Below, one piece after another: positions 2,437 through 20,720 of a stretch of 21,038 nt of DNA. The stretch is from a virus. The stretch is from positions 1 to 21,038 of the IMG/VR virus record IMGVR_UViG_3300027983_002214; one strand, written 5' to 3'. Both the position numbers and the translations under genes were made by a program. The notes beneath the pieces are model-generated. The model was not told the DNA's origin, did no database searches, and worked only from the letters and a program-made list of their open reading frames with translations. Every line of letters begins with the position of its first letter. Position 1 is the stretch's first letter.

Positions 2437-3693
2437 CTAACCCACTTCGAGCGGAGCCTTGTAAGTCTCCTTGAAACACAGCAAGGCGGCGAAGGTGATC
2501 GCGGCGGCAGCCATGATCATGAAGGCCGGGCTGTAGTCGTTGCCTGTGCGTTCGACCAGCCATGTCGCCGCCAGCGGACTGAGCCCGCCCACGACGCCCA
2601 GGGTGACGTTGTAGCCCAGCGCAATGGCCGTGCAGCGCACGGCCGCGGGTGCTGCCTCGACCATGAGGGTGGGCTGCGTGCCGACGAAGGTGCCGACGGC
2701 TATGACAAAGCCCATCTGACCCAGCAGCACGAGCGCTGGATTGGTGCTGTGCATCAGCCAGAAGAACGGCCAGGCGCCGACGAAGCCAAACACGATGGCG
2801 CAAAGCATCACGGGCTTGCGGCCAAAGCGATCCGTCATCCAGCCCATCAGGATCATGAGGGGCAACAGCGCCGCCATGCTGATGGTGTTGATGCCCAGCG
2901 CGCGCGACGGCGCCATGCCGTCAACCAATTCGAGCCAGCTCACGATGTAGACAAACATCAGGTAGAAGCCGACCGAGTTGAAGACCGACACGGCGGCCAA
3001 CCGCCCCAGCAGCGGACCGTGGTTGCGCATCGTCTCGAGCAGCGGCGAGCGCGCCGCCTTGTGGACCTTGGGCGCTTCCTGGACGTGGCGCCGCAGAAGG
3101 AAGCCCGCCAGGCCGACCAGGAGACCGAGCAGGAACGGGATGCGCCAGCCCCAGGTCTCCACGGCTTCGGCCGACATCGTCGAGGCCAGCAGCGCGCCGG
3201 TCGCGGAGCCAAGCAGGATGCCGCCGACCGCGCCGCAACCTGCCATCGCGCCGATCAGGCCGCGCCGGCCCGGTGGCGAGCGCTCGACCATGAAGACGAT
3301 CGAGGTCGTGTATTCACCCCCCACCGACAGGCCCTGGATCATGCGCAGGAGGGTGAGGATGATTGGTGCGGCCATGCCCAGCACCTCGTAGCCCGGCAAG
3401 GCGCCGACCAGGAAGGTCGGGATCGCCATCGCCGCCACCGAGAAGGTGAGCGCGGCACGGCGGCCGTACTTGTCGCCGATATGGCCGATCAGCGCGCCGC
3501 CCACGGGACGCATGAGGAAGCCCACGGCGAATATGCCGAAGGCCGCCAGCACCTGGGCCACGGGGTTCTCGTTGGGAAAGAAGGTCCGCCCGATGGCGGC
3601 GGCGAAATAGCCGTAGACCGCGAAGTCGTACCACTCCAACACATTGCCGATGGCACCGACCGCGATGGTCCGCGCCGTACTGTCCGACTTCAT
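2437..3693 (-). CDS. MFS transporter, metabolite:H+ symporter (MHS) subfamily
   Basis: 418 residues with about 12 hydrophobic segments. Motifs seen in order are [15 protein letters not shown] in helix 1, [13 protein letters not shown] between helices 2 and 3 (the MFS G-x-x-x-D-x-x-G-R-R signature), [14 protein letters not shown] in helix 4, and [13 protein letters not shown] between helices 8 and 9. This set fits the MHS group (relatives of ProP, KgtP and the citrate or shikimate carriers), which import organic acids or osmolytes with protons across the inner membrane. The substrate cannot be told from sequence. The ATG at 3693 has GGGGAG 5 nt upstream. It overlaps the stop codon of the preceding peptide/UmuC frame (ATGA), so its translation may be coupled to that frame. 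The gene is intact and convergent with the Bug fragment. Confidence 0.85.
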
Positions 3694-3803
3694 GAATGCT
3701 CCCCAGACGCCCGCTGTGTCTCCCGCAGACAGGATATCAGCTCTAATGGTTCAGGCGCAGCAACGTTACTGGCCTCAGCCCCCGACGATATATTCTCGAT
3801 CAT
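3690..3803 (-). CDS. Short ORF (37 aa) inside the right repeat copy, possible leader of the MFS gene
   Basis: The ATG at 3803 lies in frame within the umuC reading frame and has its own GAGGG ribosome site with a 5-nt gap. The peptide begins [20 protein letters not shown] and shares its start and 14 of its first 21 residues with the peptide at 2072-2152. Its stop overlaps the MFS start codon as ATGA, and the MFS ribosome site lies inside its last codons. It could be made separately as a leader peptide that couples to the transporter, or exist only as the C-terminal tail of UmuC. Sequence alone does not decide. Confidence 0.35.
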
Positions 3804-5063
3804 CCGCACCCTCGGTATGTCCTGCCACCGAGTTGTGTAATGCGGCGAAAGCTGCTCCTGGCGCATCCGCCACTCAGCATCTTTTGCGGATAGGCCCAGT
3901 CCAATGGTGCCGCGTCCGAATCTATCGTTGATCCGATCGACGGCCTTCATCAGTCCATTGCTGGTGACATGGTTTGTGAACAGGGTCGGCTGGATCTCGC
4001 CGGCGGGTGACAGATCCAGGAGCATGACGCCTGCTTTCCGCCAGGAAAATCCGTCACGCCAGAAGCGGCCAAGGATAGCGATGGCAGCGGCCACGAGGGC
4101 ACGGCTGTCAGCGGTGGGCGTCATGAAGGTGGTTGAAGCGGAGGCCGAGTGCTGCGGCGCGGATGTATCGAACGGGTCCGTGATGATGAACACCTGCATG
4201 GAACCGCAGACCTGCCCGGAGTTCCGAATCTTCTCGGCGGCGCGCTCGGCGAAAGAGATGATGGCATCGCGGACCTGATCCTTGTCCGTGATTGCGTGGC
4301 CGAAGGTTCGCGAACAGCAAGTCGTCTTCTTCGGAGATGGTTGGGTCTCCAGCTCATGGCAAGGGATGCCGCGTAATTCGTGGACGGTTCGCAAACCGAC
4401 GATGCCCATGCGCTGACGAACCCAGCCGTCCTGGGCGTTGCGCAATTCCAGTGCGGACGTGATGCCTCTTTCGTTGAGCATTGCGGACCAGCGGCGTCCA
4501 ATGCCCCAGACATCCCCCACCGGCGTCTTGTTCAGCGCCGATACAATCCATTCGGGATGATTGGCGAGATCGATCACGCCGTCGGCCTTGGCCGAACTCT
4601 TCGCAAGCTTGTTGGCGATTTTCGAAAGCGTTTTGGTCGCGCCAAGGCCTATGGAGACTGGAATCCCTGTCCAGCGTTTTGTTCGCTGGCGAAGTGCGCG
4701 GCACCAGGCGGTCAGATCCTTAACGGCAAGATTATCGAGATCGAGAAAGCATTCGTCGATGCTGTAGACCTCGTGTCGAGGTGCTGATTCGGCAAGTATG
4801 CTCATGACCCGTTCCGACAGGTCGCCATAGAGCGCGTAGTTAGAAGAACGTACGACAACGTCGTGCAGCTTGATGATGTCGCGGATCTTGAACAGAGGCA
4901 CGCCCATGGCGATGCCAAGTGCCTTCGCCTCCTGTGACCGCGCGACGACGCAGCCATCATTGTTGGAGAGCACGACGATGGGGCGACCAATTAGACGGGG
5001 CTGGAATACCCGCTCGCAGGATGCGTAGAAATTGTTGCAATCGACGAGACCGAACGTCGGCAC
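3690..5063 (-). CDS. umuC: DNA polymerase V catalytic subunit UmuC (Y family), with a C-terminal extension
   Basis: 457 residues from the GTG at 5063, which is 5 nt after the umuD stop; a longer upstream reading to 5180 would overlap umuD. The start [20 protein letters not shown] carries the first catalytic Asp. [10 protein letters not shown] carries the Asp-Glu pair of the Y-family active site, and [20 protein letters not shown] is the conserved fingers/palm segment. GEIQPTLF fits the beta-clamp-binding motif. With UmuD' it forms the error-prone translesion polymerase of the SOS response. UmuC proteins normally end soon after SPxYTTRWxxxPxVR. Here the frame runs on for about 36 more residues through the dispersed repeat peptide to a stop that overlaps the MFS start. 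Likely cotranscribed with umuD from the LexA-controlled promoter. Confidence 0.95.
3740..3784 (-). repeat. 45-bp direct repeat, right copy
   Basis: The second copy of the repeat at 2089-2133, in the same orientation, with three mismatches. It forms part of the coding frame at the 3' end of umuC and ends about 45 bp before the MFS start codon. A weaker echo of the sequence around its ATG (GGTGCG, then GGATGATCGA) occurs on the minus strand near 1866-1885. Confidence 0.8.
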
Positions 5064-5068
5064 GGCAG

Positions 5069-5509
5069 TTATCGATCGCAATGCCGACGGATGCTGTGGG
5101 TGACGACGCCCCAGACTTCGCAACCTGGATCGTCGATCGGTATGTCCGGGAAGGTTGGATTTTCTGCGGTGAGAATCCACGCGCTATTTTGCTTCTTCAG
5201 GCGCTTGACTGTCAGCTCGCCGAAAAGAACCGCGATAACGATGTCCGCGGGCTGCGGCGTGATGCTGCGATCGACAACCAGAAGGTCGCCATCGAAGATG
5301 CCGGCGTCCTTCATGGACTCGCCCGCAGCTCTGGAAAAAAACGTGGCGGCCGGGTGTCGGATGAGGTGCTCGTTCAGATCGAGCTTGCCCTCGATGTGAT
5401 CGTCGGCCGGACTGGGGAAGCCGGCGGGAACACGGGAGCTGTAGACCACGAGCGCCAAGTTTGAGGGCGAGTGGGTAAAAGAAAGCACGGCGGAATCTTT
5501 GGCGGGCAT
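5069..5509 (-). CDS. umuD: UmuD, self-cleaving accessory subunit of DNA polymerase V
   Basis: 146 residues. The autocleavage site is the Ala-Gly of [11 protein letters not shown] (residues 29-30). The catalytic Ser is in [11 protein letters not shown] (about residue 65) and the catalytic Lys in LTVKRLKK (about residue 102), giving the LexA/UmuD Ser-Lys dyad. DLLVVDRSI and [10 protein letters not shown] are further family segments. RecA filaments trigger removal of the N-terminal arm, giving UmuD', which joins UmuC. The ATG at 5509 has no ribosome site and coincides with the predicted transcription start, so the mRNA may be leaderless. A GTG at codon 8 is an alternative that would place the cleavage site nearer the position in E. 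coli UmuD. umuC follows after 5 nt. Confidence 0.93.
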
Positions 5510-5511
5510 TA

Positions 5512-5544
5512 GAACAAAATAGGAACATAGTCAGGCTTGGTCAA
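5512..5544 (-). promoter_or_regulatory. LexA-type SOS box and sigma-70-like promoter of umuDC
   Basis: GAAC-AAAATAG-GAAC at 5512-5526 is an exact match to the alphaproteobacterial LexA operator (GTTC-N7-GTTC on the coding strand). On the minus strand, TTGACC (5544-5539) and TATTTT (5521-5516) are separated by 17 nt, an almost ideal promoter. The operator overlaps the -10 element, which suits direct repression. Counting from the -10 element, transcription should begin at about 5509, the A of the umuD ATG. Confidence 0.85.
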
Positions 5545-5586
5545 CCTGGTGTTTCCGGCGGATGCTTTCACTCCCGACGCCGCGCC

Positions 5587-5997
5587 TCAGCCCGTTGGAA
5601 ACGCCCATGCCTGGCGCTGCCGGTCCCAGCCGGCCGTCACTTCCTTGAGCATGGCGTTTACGCTGAGCCCGCGTGGCTGACGTCCGTCGAGAATGGCCGA
5701 GACGATGTCAGGTGCGAGGCAGGTGAGGTTCAGGACCCTGCCGACATAGGCGATGGTCACTTTCTCCTGGGCCGCCAGATCGGTGATCGATCTGGCCTTG
5801 CCGCTCTCGATCCGCCGCCGCCAGCGGTGCGCCTTGATCAGCAGCTTGAGCATGGTGTCGTCCACGACCGGCTTGGACGCGATTGGCGAGGCGACGCCGT
5901 CGGGCGCCAGCACCCACTTGCGACCACCCCGCCGCTTGAACTGGACGGGGATGTGAATGGTCAGCGTCGTCACCTCGACCGCGGCCCGCCTGGTCAT
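5587..5997 (-). CDS. HTH protein linked to serine recombinase cassettes
   Basis: 136 residues. The basic N-terminal half contains VQFKRRGGRKWVLAPDG. A central helix-rich part (LLIKAHRWRRRIESGKARS) leads into a clear helix-turn-helix, SITDLAAQEKVTIAYVGRVL (about residues 70-89), followed by LTCLAPDIVSAILDGRQP. That last stretch resembles the KorB/ParB-type HTH region, often found as a separate ORF after, or fused to, alphaproteobacterial recombinases. Its ATG overlaps the recombinase stop by 4 bp (ATGA), so it is the last gene of the four-gene chain. A DNA-binding partner or directionality factor for the recombinase is a reasonable inference but unproven. Confidence 0.75.
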   Translation of the reverse strand: MTRRAAVEVTTLTIHIPVQFKRRGGRKWVLAPDGVASPIASKPVVDDTMLKLLIKAHRWRRRIESGKARSITDLAAQEKVTIAYVGRVLNLTCLAPDIVSAILDGRQPRGLSVNAMLKEVTAGWDRQRQAWAFPTG

Positions 5998-7373
5998 GCG
6001 GCGGCTCCGATGTAGGCCTTGAGCGGCGCGTCGCCGGCGTGAAGTTCGGTGACCAGACTGCGGATGCCCTCGGCGCGGAGCGTGATACTAAACCCCGTCG
6101 GCTCGACCGTGATCCGCTCGATCAGCAGGTGGAGAATACGCTGCTGCTCGACCGGGAACAGTTCGCTCCAGATCGTGTCGAGGCTGCCGAGCGCGCCGAC
6201 GATCTCTCGTTCCCGTCCCGCGACGCCGCCGACATCGTCGTCGAGCCGAGCTGCGGCGGCGATAACCTGCGCGGCGATCTCGGGCGCCTTGAAGATGGCC
6301 TGCATCTGCGCCAGCACCAGCGTCTCCGTTTCACCGGCTGCAATCGATCGCACCGGACAGGAGGCATGGCCGTTCTTGATGGCGCTGGTACAGAGGTAAT
6401 ATCGGTAGAGCCGGCCGCGGCGGCGGGTATGGCTCGGGGTCATCGCGGTGCCGCAGCAGCCACAATGCATTAGCCCCTTGAGCGGCGCCGGCGTAGTGGC
6501 GCGTGTGCGGTTACCCCTGCGGCGGCCGTTCTCGGCGAGCATGGTCTGGACACGATCCCAGGTCCGGCGATCGATGATAGCCTCGTGCTCGCCAGGATAA
6601 GCGTCGCCCTTGTGGACGGCGTCGCCCAGGTAGACCCGGTTGTTCAGCAATTTGTAGAGGAAGCCCTTGTCGATCCGCTTGCCCTCACGCGCCTTGCCGT
6701 CCTGGGTCGTCCAGGATTTGGTCTGGTACCTGGCCTTGGCCAGTTCCTGAACCAGGGTGGTGGCGGAGCCGACGGCGAGGAAGCGCTCGAAGATCAACCG
6801 CACCAGCGCCACCTCGGGCGGGTTGATCACCAGCTTGCGGTCCCGGACGTCGTAGCCGAGTGGCGGGATGCCGCCCATCCACATGCCGCGCTTGCGCGAG
6901 GCGGCGACCTTGTCGCGGATGCGCTCGCCGATTACCTCGCGCTCGAACTGGGCGAAGGACAGAAGGATGTTCAGCGTCAACCGGCCCATCGAAGTCGTCG
7001 TATTGAACGACTGCGTGACACTCACGAACGTGACGCTTTGCCGGTCGAACACTTCGACCAGCTTGGCGAAGTCCATCAGCGCGCGCGACAGACGGTCGAT
7101 CTTGTAGACGACGACCACATCGACACGGCCACCTTCGATGTCGGCGAGCAGGCGCTTGAGCGCTGGGCGCTCCAGATTGCCACCGGAGAAGCCGCCATCC
7201 TCGTAGCGGTCGGGGAGCGCAATCCATCCTTCGTGGCGCTGGCTCTCAATGTAGGCAAGCCCGGCGTCGCGCTGCGCATCGAGCGAGTTAAACTCCTGCT
7301 CGAGCCCTTCCTCACTGCTCTTGCGGCAATAGACGGCGCAGCGGGTTTTACGCAGGGCGATCGTGGCGGTCAT
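5994..7373 (-). CDS. Large serine recombinase (resolvase/invertase family integrase)
   Basis: 459 residues. The N-terminal catalytic domain shows YCRKSSEE with the nucleophilic Ser (residue 19 or 20), DRYEDGGFSGGNLERPALKR, and VVVYKIDRLSRALMDF with the catalytic Arg. SFAQFEREVIGERIRDKVAA starts the long linking helix. The recombinase domain follows (GIPPLGYDVRDRKLVINP). A zinc ribbon comes next, with MHCGCCG and then a Cys in YYLCTSA and another in HASCPV. The C-terminal segment is short and lacks a long coiled coil. Such enzymes integrate or excise mobile elements by cutting both strands through a 5'-phosphoserine. It overlaps both neighbours by 4 bp. It is probably the integrase of the element that includes part of this window; no att sites could be identified. 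Confidence 0.92.
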   Translation of the reverse strand: MTATIALRKTRCAVYCRKSSEEGLEQEFNSLDAQRDAGLAYIESQRHEGWIALPDRYEDGGFSGGNLERPALKRLLADIEGGRVDVVVVYKIDRLSRALMDFAKLVEVFDRQSVTFVSVTQSFNTTTSMGRLTLNILLSFAQFEREVIGERIRDKVAASRKRGMWMGGIPPLGYDVRDRKLVINPPEVALVRLIFERFLAVGSATTLVQELAKARYQTKSWTTQDGKAREGKRIDKGFLYKLLNNRVYLGDAVHKGDAYPGEHEAIIDRRTWDRVQTMLAENGRRRGNRTRATTPAPLKGLMHCGCCGTAMTPSHTRRRGRLYRYYLCTSAIKNGHASCPVRSIAAGETETLVLAQMQAIFKAPEIAAQVIAAAARLDDDVGGVAGREREIVGALGSLDTIWSELFPVEQQRILHLLIERITVEPTGFSITLRAEGIRSLVTELHAGDAPLKAYIGAAA

Positions 7374-16508: not shown

Positions 16509-17782
16509 CTCTCAGTGCGCAACAACAGGCTGCCGTTGCCGCAATTGTGCATTGGTACCGGAACGACCGGCATCACCAGCAGGTCGCAAGAGTCTGGGGG
16601 TATGCCGGAACGGGAAAAAGCACGATCACCCGCTACGTCATTGAGGAACTCGGCCTCGCGGCCATGAGCCGACAGGGTGGCGCCACCGGCGGCGTGCTGT
16701 TTGCGGCCTTCACCGGCAAGGCGGCGCTGGTGATGACCCGCAAGGGCACGCCAGCCTCGACTATCCACAGCCTTATCTACCGGGTCTCGGAAGCGACGCC
16801 GGAAGAGATCGCGCGCGTCGAGAAGGATCTGTTCGACCTTCAGAGGACCGCGCACCGGATGCCACCGGCCGAGCGGGCCTTCGCCGAGACCCAGATCCGC
16901 CGCCTGCAGCTGCGCCTGGCCGACATTCACAAGCCGGTGTTCCTGCTGAACGAGAAGTCTCTGGTCCGCGACGCCGACCTGATCGTGCTCGACGAGGTCT
17001 CCATGGTGGGGCCGGAGATGGCGGCCGACCTGCTGGCCTTCGGCAAGCCGATCCTGGTGCTGGGCGATCCCGGGCAGCTGCCGCCGATCAAGGGCACCGG
17101 AGCCTTCACCGAGGCCGTGCCGGACGTGATGCTGACCGAGATCCATCGCCAGGCCGGCGATAGTGCGATCCTGCGCCTGGCCACCCTGGCGCGGCAGGGC
17201 GAGCCGATCCCCTACGGCCGCCATGACGACTACGTCTGGAAGATGCGCCGCAATGAGGTCGGGCCCGAGCAGCTGCTGCGCGGCGGACAGGTGATCTGCG
17301 GGCGCAACGCCACGCGCCTTCACCTCAACGCCGCCATGAAACACGCGGCCGGCTTCACCGATGTGCTGCCGCAAGGTAGCGGCGAGAAAATCATCTGCCT
17401 AAAAAACCGCCACGATCTCGGCCTGGTCAACGGCATGTTCGTGTCCCTGGCCGATATCCGGGGCGAGGGGCGGCTTTCGTTCAGCGCCACCGTCACCACC
17501 GAGGACGGCGTGGCGATTAACGGCCGGCAATACTTCTACCGGGGATACTACGACGATCACGTCAAGCCGGATCCGGATCGTACCCGTCGCGACTGGAAGG
17601 AGTTGCGCCAGCTGATCGAGACCGTCTGGGGCTACGCCATCACCTGTCACAAGAGCCAAGGAAGTTCCTGGCCCAACGTCATCGTCTACGACGACGGTTT
17701 GAGCCGCACCGCGGAGGAGCGTAACCGCTGGCTCTACACCGCCATCACGCGCGCCGAGCGCGGGTTGGTGATCCTTGATTGA
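16496..17782 (+). CDS. RecD-like superfamily 1 DNA helicase
   Basis: 428 residues from the ATG at 16496, inside the end of the HNH gene. Walker A is GYAGTGKS (residues 35-42), AAFTGKAALVM is motif Ia, LIVLDEVSM is Walker B (162-170), and ILVLGDPGQLPPI is motif III. VMLTEIHRQAGDSAILRLA is motif IV with its Arg. WGYAITCHKSQGSSWPNVIV and YTAITRAERGLVIL are motifs V and VI. This is the RecD/exonuclease V alpha pattern (5'-3' helicase), in the short form used by phages and ICEs. It probably unwinds DNA for the upstream exonuclease or for replication initiated by the primase downstream. The primase start codon overlaps its stop by 8 bp. Confidence 0.9.
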   Translation: MDCVALSAQQQAAVAAIVHWYRNDRHHQQVARVWGYAGTGKSTITRYVIEELGLAAMSRQGGATGGVLFAAFTGKAALVMTRKGTPASTIHSLIYRVSEATPEEIARVEKDLFDLQRTAHRMPPAERAFAETQIRRLQLRLADIHKPVFLLNEKSLVRDADLIVLDEVSMVGPEMAADLLAFGKPILVLGDPGQLPPIKGTGAFTEAVPDVMLTEIHRQAGDSAILRLATLARQGEPIPYGRHDDYVWKMRRNEVGPEQLLRGGQVICGRNATRLHLNAAMKHAAGFTDVLPQGSGEKIICLKNRHDLGLVNGMFVSLADIRGEGRLSFSATVTTEDGVAINGRQYFYRGYYDDHVKPDPDRTRRDWKELRQLIETVWGYAITCHKSQGSSWPNVIVYDDGLSRTAEERNRWLYTAITRAERGLVILD

Positions 17783-20720
17783 CCTAAACGGAGCGACCTA
17801 TCCGTCCGCGCCGCGGGTCCGCTACGACCTCGATGCCATCGTGGCACGGCTGCGCGCCACTGCGGAATCCTGGGTGCCGCAGCATTTTCCCAACGGTCGG
17901 CGTGTCGCCGACGAATGGCGGCTCGCCAATATCCGCGGCGATGCCCCGCGGAAGTCTGGATCCTGCGTCTTCACGCTGAAGGGTGAGCATGCCGGCGACT
18001 GGCACGACTTCGATGGCGGGCAGGGCGGCGGGCCGCTGAGTGCCCTGGAGGAGGCGGAGGGCCTCACCAATCGCGACCTCTTTGCCTACGCCGCCGAACT
18101 GGTCGGCTGGTCGGCCGGCGCGCCCGCGCGAAGGGAACCTGCCACCGCCGCGGCGAAGCCGGAGCGCGACCCGTCGCGCGAGATCGCCTTCATTCTCGAT
18201 CATGCCCGACCCATCGACGATACAGCGGCGACAGCCTATCTCGAAGGGCGCGGGCTCGTGTTCGCCGGTGCGGTCGATCTGTTGGCGCACGCCGATCTGA
18301 CGCATTGGGAGACGAAGTCGGGCTACCCCGCGATGATCGGCGTAGTCCGCAATCTCGCCGGCGAGGCGGTCGCGCTCCACCGTACCTACCTGCAGGTCGA
18401 TGTACAGGATCCCGGCAAGGTAACGAAGGCGCCCGTTGCCAAGCCACGCATGATGCTGGGCAAGGTAGCGGGCGGTGCGGTGCGGCTGGCCCCGATCAAT
18501 CCCGGCGCCGCCCTTGGTCTGTGCGAAGGCATTGAAACCGGCCTTGCCGCGATGACGGCCTGTCCTGGCTTGCCGGTCTGGGCGACCTTGTCGGCCACCA
18601 ACCTCGAACAGGTGAAGCTGCCCCCAGAAGCCCACCGCATCGTCATCCTGGCCGACCACGATGCATCCGGTGCCGGCACTCGGGCGGCCGAGACCGCAGC
18701 GCGGCGGTTACGGGGCGAGGGGCGACAGGTAGCGATCGCGATCCCACCAGGGGAAGGTTGCGACTTCAACGACGTGCTGTTGTGCGAGGGGCCCGAGGCC
18801 GTCGCAGCCATCATCGAAGCGGCTTTCACCACGAAGGCGGGAGAAGAGGCGGGGCACGCACCCGACGCCACCGGCCGCCACCTCCCGATCGGCTTTGTGG
18901 AGCCCTCCGGGCCGCTGCCGACGCTGCGCGCCGATGATGGCGACCTGGCTCGCGCGGTCGATCGTGCCTGGAGCGTGCTGCTGGCGTCCAATCGCACGCC
19001 GTGGCTGTTCCGCGCCGGCGGCCTGCCGAGCTGGGTCGTGCCCGACGACGAGGGCCGCCCCATGGTGGCGCCGATCACTGACGAGCGCCTGCGTCATGTG
19101 CTGGCCAGGCTCGCCAACTGGCGGCGTATGGACAGCCGGGGCGACATCGTTCCGGCGCATCCGCCGACGTCGCAGATCAAGTCGCTGATGGCGACGCCCG
19201 ATCCCGCCCTGCCGGTCCTGGCAGGCATCGTTACCACGCCGGTGTTCGGACGGGCCGGGGTGCTGCTGACCGAGCCGGGCTATCATGCCGATGCGCGACT
19301 GCTGTACCAGCCGGTGCCCGGGTTCCAGCTGCCCACCATTCCGGAGCAGCCGACGGCCGACGACATCGCAGCCGCACGCCAGCTGATCCTGGACGACCTG
19401 CTGGGCGAGTTCCCGTTCACTTCGCTGGCCGAACGCGCCCACGCCGTGTCGCTCCTGCTGCTGGGCTTTCTGCGCGCCATGATCGAGGGGCCGACGCCGC
19501 TGCACCTGATCGAGAAGCCCACGGCGGGCACCGGCGCCACGCTCATGGTCGATGCCATGGCGACCATTCTCACCGGCTCGGGCGCGGGGGTGATGACCGA
19601 GGGCACCGATGAGGAGGAATGGCGCAAGCGCATCACGGCGAAGCTCCGCCAGATCCCAGTGCTGGTGCTGATCGATAATTTGAAGCGCCACCTCGACGCC
19701 TCGGCCCTGGCCGCCGCGCTGACGGCGCCGTTCTGGGAGGACCGCATCCTCGGCGTTTCGGAGATCACACGCCTGCAGATCCGATGCCTCTGGGTCGCCA
19801 CCGGCAACAATCCGACCTTCTCCAACGAGATGGCGCGCCGGCTGGTCCGCATCAGGCTCGATGCGCATGTCGAGCGGCCCTGGCAGCGCAGCGGGTTCCG
19901 CCATCCCGATCTGATGGTCTGGGTTGTCGCGAATCGCGCTCGCCTCGTCGCGGCCTGCCTCACCCTCGGTCGTGCCTGGATCGCCGCCGGCCGGCCTCGC
20001 GCAACCCGCACCATCGGCAGTTACGAGTCCTGGGCTCAGACCATGGGCGGCGTACTCGAGGTCGCCGGCATCGAGGGGTTCCTGGGCAACATCGAGGAGA
20101 TGATGGCAGCGTCGGACAGCGAGGGTGGCGCCTGGCGCAGCTTCGTTTCGGCCTGGTGGGATCGGTTCGGGACGGCCGACGTTGGGACGGGCGACCTCCA
20201 TACCCTCGCGAGCGAGTGCGAGCCGCCGCTGCCGCTGGGAACTGGCAACGAAAAGTCGCAACGCACCCGGCTGGGCATGGCGCTCGCAAAGATGCGAGAC
20301 CGGGTGTTCGACATCGACGGAATCAAGGTGCGCCTTCAGCTGCTCGGCGTCTCGCATCAGGCCAAGCGGTGGAGGCTCCGCCTCGAAGACAATAAAGGGC
20401 CCTCGCCGGAGCTGTCGGGCCGTTCCGCCGGGGAACCTTTGGCCTCGGAGGGGAACCTTTGGAACCAAGGTTCCCCGACCTATCCCATTGAAAACAAAGG
20501 CTCCGGGGAACCTGGGGAACCTGGGGAACCTTTTTTAACCCTTACACATGCGCGCACGCGCGTGTATGCGAGAGAGGATAGGGAAAAAGGTTCCCCAGGT
20601 TCCCCAGGTTCCCCCGGCCCTGAAATATCAAAGGGTTACGTCGGGGAACCTTGCGGGGAACCTCGGTCGCAACGTTCCCCGATCCCAAATCCGCCCGATT
20701 GGCTGAAGGAGGTGCTGTGA
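17775..20720 (+). CDS. Phage/plasmid-type TOPRIM primase fused to a helicase-like domain
   Basis: 981 residues from the TTG at 17775; an in-frame stop two codons upstream excludes anything longer. The N-terminal part has WHDFDGGQGGGPLSALEEAE, as in DUF7146-type primase leaders. The TOPRIM domain follows: LCEGIETGLAA with its catalytic Glu at about 250, and VILADHDASG with its Asp-x-Asp at about 291-297. A second module from about 540 on resembles a replicative helicase, but its P-loop reads PTAGTGATLM (about 580), with no Lys. VLVLIDNLKRHLD (Walker B-like) and LWVATGNNPTFSNEMARRLV (sensor) follow. Residues about 880-965 are low-complexity, full of Gly-Glu-Pro and Gly-Ser-Pro encoded by the repeat array. 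It probably makes primers, and may open DNA, at the element's origin. Confidence 0.88.
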   Translation: MIDLNGATYPSAPRVRYDLDAIVARLRATAESWVPQHFPNGRRVADEWRLANIRGDAPRKSGSCVFTLKGEHAGDWHDFDGGQGGGPLSALEEAEGLTNRDLFAYAAELVGWSAGAPARREPATAAAKPERDPSREIAFILDHARPIDDTAATAYLEGRGLVFAGAVDLLAHADLTHWETKSGYPAMIGVVRNLAGEAVALHRTYLQVDVQDPGKVTKAPVAKPRMMLGKVAGGAVRLAPINPGAALGLCEGIETGLAAMTACPGLPVWATLSATNLEQVKLPPEAHRIVILADHDASGAGTRAAETAARRLRGEGRQVAIAIPPGEGCDFNDVLLCEGPEAVAAIIEAAFTTKAGEEAGHAPDATGRHLPIGFVEPSGPLPTLRADDGDLARAVDRAWSVLLASNRTPWLFRAGGLPSWVVPDDEGRPMVAPITDERLRHVLARLANWRRMDSRGDIVPAHPPTSQIKSLMATPDPALPVLAGIVTTPVFGRAGVLLTEPGYHADARLLYQPVPGFQLPTIPEQPTADDIAAARQLILDDLLGEFPFTSLAERAHAVSLLLLGFLRAMIEGPTPLHLIEKPTAGTGATLMVDAMATILTGSGAGVMTEGTDEEEWRKRITAKLRQIPVLVLIDNLKRHLDASALAAALTAPFWEDRILGVSEITRLQIRCLWVATGNNPTFSNEMARRLVRIRLDAHVERPWQRSGFRHPDLMVWVVANRARLVAACLTLGRAWIAAGRPRATRTIGSYESWAQTMGGVLEVAGIEGFLGNIEEMMAASDSEGGAWRSFVSAWWDRFGTADVGTGDLHTLASECEPPLPLGTGNEKSQRTRLGMALAKMRDRVFDIDGIKVRLQLLGVSHQAKRWRLRLEDNKGPSPELSGRSAGEPLASEGNLWNQGSPTYPIENKGSGEPGEPGEPFLTLTHARTRVYAREDREKGSPGSPGSPGPEISKGYVGEPCGEPRSQRSPIPNPPDWLKEVL
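20430..20680 (+). repeat. Array of twelve 9-bp GGGGAACCT units in both orientations
   Basis: Forward units start at 20430, 20450, 20505, 20514, 20523, 20643 and 20655. Reverse units (AGGTTCCCC) start at 20468, 20588, 20597 and 20606, and an imperfect one (ACGTTCCCC) at 20672. Three forward units are in tandem, and three reverse units are in tandem. All lie inside the 3' end of the primase gene in multiples that keep the frame, giving Gly-Glu-Pro and Gly-Ser-Pro. A side hairpin forms from 20450-20459 and 20467-20476 (10-bp arms, 7-nt loop). Iteron-like binding sites for a replication initiator are the leading inference. Confidence 0.8.
20505..20614. other. Nested inverted repeat with Z-DNA-prone core, candidate origin
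   Basis: Arms of 31 bp (20505-20535 and 20584-20614) pair perfectly: three GGGGAACCT units plus four T against four A plus three AGGTTCCCC units. The 48-nt centre holds CCCT/AGGG, which can extend the stem. It also holds a 28-nt strictly alternating purine-pyrimidine tract (20543-20570). Inside that tract, a 9-bp hairpin forms from 20546-20554 and 20557-20565 (one G-T pair). This could extrude as a cruciform or Z-DNA, or fold strongly in the mRNA. Confidence 0.7.

Follow-up and report, generated by a model that had tools for sequence, protein, structure and literature searches.

A probable iteron-type replication origin inside the coding sequence for its presumed primase-initiator in alphaproteobacterial prophages

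Introduction

An initiator with an iteron origin at the 3' end of its gene is a known kind of replication module. In the repAB/iteron locus of the Streptomyces theta plasmid pWTY27, a 300-bp array is required in cis for replication and restores replication once re-cloned, RepA binds this array specifically in an electrophoretic mobility shift assay (EMSA) and leaves a footprint over the inner inverted repeat, and a plasmid with the locus propagates in linear form too, which was taken as evidence of bidirectional replication (PMC3583192). The authors of that study suggested that a stem-loop is recognized (PMC3583192). P4 alpha, as far as it is summarised in PMC4234260, unites a Toprim primase, an SF3-type helicase and a C-terminal winged helix in one protein, and the winged helix binds origin repeats. 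For the primase-Rep proteins of phage-inducible chromosomal islands (PICI), including the Staphylococcus aureus pathogenicity islands (SaPI), the origin lies 3' of rep and consists of two iteron sets around an AT-rich centre that serves as the melting site (PMC6092414; PDB 7ola, 7om0, 7pds). In pRN1 (orf904) and in the Bordetella phage BIP-1, the gene for a primase-SF3-winged helix protein is followed closely on its 3' side by an inverted-repeat origin, for which Berkner et al. propose a stem-loop (PMC4234260). Here we describe a related locus in a viral stretch of DNA (IMG/VR virus record IMGVR_UViG_3300027983_002214; the whole stretch of 21,038 bases is referred to below as the window), namely, an array of 9-mers inside the gene for a primase fused to a putative initiator, which very probably is an iteron-type replication origin embedded in its own initiator's gene and read by the winged helix of that protein.

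With pWTY27, the locus has in common a homologous ATPase-winged helix Rep and an array directly 3' of the winged helix that is two-sided, its inner arms pairing with each other and single copies lying outside them. The pWTY27 array, however, is non-coding, its prim-pol RepB is a separate protein, its Walker A motif is canonical and its repeat is GTGGGAAC, whereas here the array lies in frame inside the gene and a Toprim primase is fused to the same chain. Primase, SF3/D5 ATPase and winged helix are found in one chain, as in P4 alpha and the D5-like proteins; to our knowledge, P4 iterons are not known inside the alpha gene. The initiator gene O of phage lambda does hold its own iterons, and initiator-iteron specificity varies among its relatives, as it does here, but O is an unrelated initiator without primase or ATPase, and its iterons are located mid-gene. 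Compared with PICI and SaPI, the two iteron sets around a centre are alike, but the centre here is an alternating purine-pyrimidine tract rather than an AT-rich melting site, and the array is inside the gene. The pRN1 and BIP-1 proteins differ in their archaeo-eukaryotic primase and in a stem-loop that was described without iterons and for which specific Rep binding was not detected (PMC4234260). New features of the present locus are the position of the likely origin inside a fused primase-initiator coding sequence, a predictive residue-base code, a conserved purine-pyrimidine centre and an unusual Walker A motif; in the open-access literature, we found no earlier description of a primase gene of this kind that contains an origin.

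Results

Twelve 9-mers at one site

When the whole window was scanned, the 9-mer GGGGAACCT was found in 11 exact copies, every one within positions 20430-20663, compared to a chance expectation of 0.19 copies and a maximum of 2 in dinucleotide shuffles. A copy with one mismatch follows on the minus strand at 20672-20680. Thus, many short direct repeats of one sequence occur at one site, as in iteron origins, with 12 copies here and none elsewhere in the window. The original prediction had described twelve units in both orientations between 20430 and 20680, three of them in tandem on each side, along with a palindrome with 31-bp arms and a 28-nt alternating tract; all of this was confirmed on the sequence, provided that one unit is counted as a near copy (Table 1). 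Pairing between the inner arms is perfect for 31 bp (20505-20535 with 20584-20614), and a looser inverted arm of 70 nt is 84% complementary. The spacer, with its short T and A tracts and purine-pyrimidine core, has a G+C content of 50%, against about 65% in the surrounding sequence.

The array lies in frame between the winged helix and the conserved last peptide of the protein and encodes a linker (GEPGEPGEP ... GSPGSPGSP). The frame stays open through the array because this C-terminal peptide follows; homologues end in PPxWL[DK][GE]V[PL], for example, PPxWLDGVP or PPDWLKEVL. The earlier description of the array as coding for Gly-Glu-Pro and Gly-Ser-Pro repeats is accurate with respect to the frame but does not extend to the outer single copies, some of which are in other frames (SEGNLW at 20450), indicating that the constraint is on the DNA rather than on a Gly-x-Pro peptide.

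Two further observations concern this region. The sequence TATCAAAGGGTTA at 20625-20637, between array copies, matches the IHF consensus WATCAANNNNTTR and is present in some close relatives (e.g. L004) but not in all. The strongly conserved last residues (20691-20717) might serve to dock a replication protein of the host. A known RNA family was considered as well, and Rfam gave no match.

Persistence of the array across homologous loci

Scans of IMG/VR and GTDB contigs yielded about 180 homologous loci, mostly in prophages of Alphaproteobacteria (Roseomonas, Paracoccus, Erythrobacter, Parvibaculum, Jannaschia and others). Arrays were scored by their fit to the three-plus-three layout, with a maximum of 54, in the 155 loci with a readable 3' part. 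Scores of 44-54 were obtained for 145 of these loci, whereas shuffled tails reached at most 36 and upstream stretches within the same genes at most 38. The remaining 10 loci have a frameshift, an interruption, a readthrough fusion with the following gene or fewer copies, and are not true absences: they retain repeats or, in two interrupted copies, downstream remnants (in L049, which is interrupted far upstream, the tail was not read). Hence, the comparison of homologues proposed along with the original prediction turned out in its favour: the array persists among the 155 homologues, the 9-mers on its two sides change together, and no locus with the same neighbours but without an array at this place was encountered among them.

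The 9-mer itself is highly variable. In the 145 high-scoring loci, we identified 36 different 9-mers, all in one register and mostly of the form N-G-[GT]-G-[AG]-N-N-N-T, and within a locus the change is concerted, involving both sides and the outer copies. The latter are located at fixed offsets (left, -75, -55 and -37; right, +28, +40 and +57) and match the 9-mer of their own locus at 5.7 copies per locus, compared to 0.12 for foreign 9-mers. The spacer is conserved among 106 non-redundant arrays, with a median alternating run of 28 nt versus a mean of 6.1 nt in random windows. Among genomes with co-resident prophages, three carry different 9-mers and three the same one.

Coupling between the winged helix and the 9-mer

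In a set of about 100 related prophages, the repeat and the presumed DNA-reading residues vary together, to the extent that a single residue largely predicts a single base. For pairs of loci with a core identity of 90-95%, winged-helix identity amounts to 95.8% if the 9-mer is shared but to 62.7% if at least two of its bases differ. One pair of loci, L007 (9-mer GGGGAACGT) and L008 (GGTGGACGT), differs mainly in the winged helix and the array. The coupling can be traced to individual residues. At base 3, G is accompanied by His861 (66 of 66) and T by Arg or Gln861 (32 of 34). At base 5, A is accompanied by Ala863 (71 of 74), Ser or Thr863 is mostly matched by G, and Leu863, which occurs once, goes with T. 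Base 7 is C solely with Thr831, in all 57 C cases; base 8 is mostly G with Lys835, C with Met or Ile835 and mostly A with Arg835; and base 6 follows residue 827 (0.95). On a tree of the core, phylogenetically independent contrasts gave 14:0 for base 3, 11:0 for base 5 and 12.5:0 for base 7; for base 8, the ratios were 14:0 for C paired with a small or hydrophobic residue 835 and 11.6:1.0 for G paired with Lys. On a tree of the local DNA from which the tested codons were removed, only about 3, 5, 3 and 2-3 supported contrasts were left for bases 3, 5, 7 and 8, respectively, and all of them ran in the expected direction.

We then derived single-residue rules from 28 loci and tried them on 50 held-out loci whose winged helices were less than 85% identical to any training row. 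The bases of the held-out 9-mers were predicted with an accuracy of 0.89, compared to 0.57 with the nearest core and 0.67 with the nearest winged helix, the predictive columns having originally been chosen with all data in view. When columns were chosen from the training rows alone, 863, 835 and 827 were recovered, whereas the small training set was explained equally well or better by other columns in the case of bases 3 and 7. In a ranking of 674 protein columns, residues 861, 831 and 835 came first for their respective bases and 863 came second. In the winged helix, which was predicted independently of the coupling, residues 827, 831 and 835 lie one turn apart from each other along the recognition helix, and the wing tip comprises 861-863. 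This pattern points to direct contact and is not predicted by shared transfer of neighbouring DNA; from this coupling, we infer that the winged helix binds the 9-mers directly. The locus thereby combines two further attributes of iteron origins, an adjacent initiator gene and a DNA-binding domain matched to the repeats.

Domain organization of the presumed initiator

The gene had been described as that of a plain primase. The primase domains are indeed present, but they are fused to a D5/SF3-like ATPase and a winged helix. Pfam gave no match for the ATPase/winged-helix half, and a PDB sequence search with a C-terminal profile gave none either; the AlphaFold2 model of the C-terminal half (predicted local distance difference test, pLDDT, 80.5) contains a D5/SF3-like ATPase with a winged helix behind it. 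Structurally, the ATPase half is matched best by the SaPI5 primase-helicase (Z 12.1, 364 aligned residues, root-mean-square deviation 8.9), and further matches include vaccinia/mpox D5/E5, the PrimPol of African swine fever virus and the C-terminal region (CTR) of NrS-1. For the winged helix modelled alone (pLDDT 87), Foldseek returned no match below E 0.1, and VIA-align returned generic winged helices (best Z 8.4; MCM8 winged helix, 7.0; Z-alpha, 6.8). The P4 alpha winged helix was not among the matches listed for this domain, which proves nothing. No named relative can be claimed for this domain, and a tie to Z-DNA-binding domains would be speculation.

The Walker A lysine is replaced by Ala588 in 145 of 145 homologues, and an invariant lysine, Lys581, is found seven residues upstream (EKPTPGTGAT; 19515-19544). 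The same replacement (Ala or Gly) is seen in the lytic relatives L188 and L191 and in the distant homologue L198, whereas the plasmid relatives have a canonical GxGK without the upstream lysine. In this respect, the protein departs from the canonical motif (GxxGxGK[ST]) of P4 alpha- and D5-like primase-helicases. The change may represent a displaced lysine or a dead motor; which of the two applies would decide how opening is powered, and a partner, for example, the adjacent helicase, may be required.

Arrays in distant relatives

Distant relatives share the ATPase-winged helix half alone, with about 30% identity, and have similar arrays just past the stop codon. Such arrays were detected in Azospirillum (AGTGGGTTT, three plus three), Streptomyces, Nonomuraea (14 copies flanking a long purine-pyrimidine run), pCM32 and several Pseudomonadota genomes. 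The most informative relative is pWTY27 RepA, which matches the initiator with a tblastn E-value of 2e-44 and 29% identity over 54% of the query, with aligned motifs. Together with the layout of the array, this homology suggests that the array functions as an origin. Near the gene, an array was not seen in lytic Ruegeria and Caulobacter phage relatives or in several distant Pseudomonadota homologues, so that it is not universal in the wider superfamily.

In two loci of other families, L202 and L218, the array seemingly lies inside the gene (GVTGVTGVI; KVTHQKPPTHQ with YAQAHAHAC), which suggests that embedding of the array arose more than once. In the Bordetella phage BPP-1 (L196), at about 26.6-26.7 kb, TTGCCTCGTT occurs twice and, inverted, twice again around CATACGTGTACATG; bbp29, the primase gene, ends about 0.5 kb before this site on its 5' side. 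This inverted repeat, of the kind proposed as a stem-loop origin (PMC4234260), may be a small iteron array with a purine-pyrimidine centre.

Genomic context

The genes upstream of the initiator encode a Sak4-like annealing protein, a Cas4-type exonuclease and a Dda-like helicase, and the gene directly downstream, identified in the homologous locus L035, encodes a RuvC-like resolvase. Farther away, the minus strand at 2437-7373 encodes a major facilitator superfamily transporter, a UmuC/ImpB-type polymerase and a large serine integrase, the last of which suggests that a prophage end or attachment site is nearby.

Table 1. Positions of the initiator gene, its predicted domains and the elements of the 9-mer array in the window
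Feature	Position	Strand	Remark
Initiator gene, 981 aa, TTG start	17775..20720	+	overlaps end of Dda-like helicase gene
DUF7146 (residues 135-238) and Toprim_3 (residues 247-340) primase domains	18177..18794	+	Pfam E 5e-24 and 3.5e-20; phrog_510 DNA primase
D5/SF3-like AAA+ half, residues 381-780	18915..20114	+	AlphaFold2 model, structural matches
C-terminal winged helix, residues 800-870, predicted reader of the 9-mer	20172..20384	+	pLDDT 87; coevolution with 9-mer
Recognition helix, residues 826-840, third helix of winged helix	20250..20294	+	model, covariation
Wing hairpin, residues 850-870, turn at 861-862	20322..20384	+	model, covariation
9-mer copy 1, outer left	20430..20438	+	
9-mer copy 2, outer left, other reading frame	20450..20458	+	
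9-mer copy 3, outer left, inverted	20468..20476	-	
9-mer copies 4-6, head-to-tail tandem, left inner arm	20505..20531	+	
Spacer between inner arms, 56 nt: T tract, alternating purine-pyrimidine core, A tract	20532..20587		
Alternating purine-pyrimidine tract, exactly 28 nt, presumed opening/initiation zone	20543..20570		
9-mer copies 7-9, inverted tandem, right inner arm	20588..20614	-	
9-mer copy 10, outer right	20643..20651	+	
9-mer copy 11, outer right	20655..20663	+	
9-mer copy 12, outer right, inverted, one mismatch	20672..20680	-	
Conserved C-terminal peptide PPDWLKEVL and stop	20691..20720	+	homologue tails

Discussion

The present computational analysis reveals an array of 9-mers inside a primase-initiator gene, its conservation across prophages and its coupling to individual residues of the encoded winged helix. 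The persistence of the array, the coupling and the similarity to pWTY27 all support the original prediction that a primase gene carries its own initiator-binding site or origin at the 3' end. Under the model that we favour, the winged helix would dock on the 9-mers, with residues 827, 831 and 835 of the recognition helix reading bases 6-8 and the wing tip (861 and 863) reading bases 3-5. Initiator bound to both inverted triplets would load from two sides of the central purine-pyrimidine tract, which, hypothetically, would be opened and then primed by the attached primase, resulting in bidirectional replication. The neighbouring Dda-like helicase and recombination proteins probably assist, whereas any part played by an ATPase without the Walker A lysine is conjectural. 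Because all copies in one element must match one protein, the array and the winged helix would change in step, and each prophage lineage would acquire a specificity of its own.

Several observations weigh against this model. A classical AT-rich unwinding element was not identified at the array, and GC skew, one of the checks proposed with the original prediction, changes only weakly and locally near it, a change that is confounded by coding. The missing Walker A lysine makes ATP-driven melting by this protein uncertain. Furthermore, the winged helix adjoins the array in the DNA, so that joint transfer could explain part of the raw coupling.

The alternative that fares best is that the array is an operator, bound by the initiator to regulate its own gene or the downstream RuvC-like gene, with replication starting elsewhere. 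The coupling reveals recognition rather than its purpose, the RuvC-like gene is immediately downstream, and iterons often serve in copy control as well. However, the array is at the end of the gene, not at its start; copies are not found by other genes (5 exact copies in 950 kb of flanks, compared to 8.6 expected); and the 12 sites in a fixed two-sided layout resemble the locus that pWTY27 requires for replication more than they do an operator. An exclusive operator role therefore appears improbable, although such a role is possible as an additional function of the origin.

We consider it quite unlikely that an mRNA or cruciform hairpin is the functional element, with 9-mers that covary merely to preserve base pairing. 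The array is predicted to fold into a highly stable RNA (-158.7 kcal/mol, z -11.4), and stem-loop origins have been proposed for pRN1 and BIP-1 (PMC4234260). Nevertheless, such stability is expected of any array of inverted copies, and complementarity of the 28-nt blocks that separate the copies is almost the same for blocks of one locus (0.431) as for blocks of different loci (0.411). Neither the link to protein residues nor the concerted change of the tandem and outer copies would be expected from pairing, so that the mRNA-structure alternative that had accompanied the original prediction fares poorly. The coupling also favours direct reading of each short repeat over recognition of a stem-loop, the mode suggested for pWTY27 (PMC3583192).

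There is similarly little to recommend the possibility that the winged helix and the array hitch-hike, being swapped as one cassette without direct contact. The two are adjacent and recombine against the core, as the L007/L008 pair illustrates, but single residues outperform the nearest winged helix on the held-out loci, the best of the 674 columns fall on the recognition helix and the wing, and the contrasts persist on the local-DNA tree. Finally, a selfish repeat, likewise named with the original prediction, or a REP-like (repetitive extragenic palindromic) repeat, or a peptide repeat with a role in the protein, is scarcely credible: the repeats do sit in a fast-evolving linker, but dispersed copies such as those of REP elements were not found, the copies occupy several reading frames across homologues, the encoded peptides vary freely (GEP, GER, WGT, CEP, GSL), and in distant relatives the array lies outside the coding region, which argues that its role is not in the peptide.

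The iteron origin embedded in the initiator gene thus remains the best account of the data. More tentatively, its distinctive features might be combined into a single scheme: a natural residue-to-base code (residues 827, 831 and 835 for bases 6, 7 and 8; 861 and 863 for bases 3 and 5), at least 36 specificities that arose since the origin sits in and travels with the initiator gene, opening at a conserved, Z-DNA-prone alternating tract in place of an AT-rich element, and a displaced Walker A lysine. We lean slightly against all these parts holding at once.

Taken together, these results place a likely replication origin, by sequence alone, across a whole group of alphaproteobacterial prophages and tie it to its presumed reader protein. 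Each genome holds the reader together with about a dozen copies of its site, so that many protein-site pairs can be read from public data. The specificity of winged-helix initiators, prophage incompatibility and origin swapping thereby become directly testable, and the findings suggest that 'stem-loop' origins next to similar proteins may be iteron arrays.

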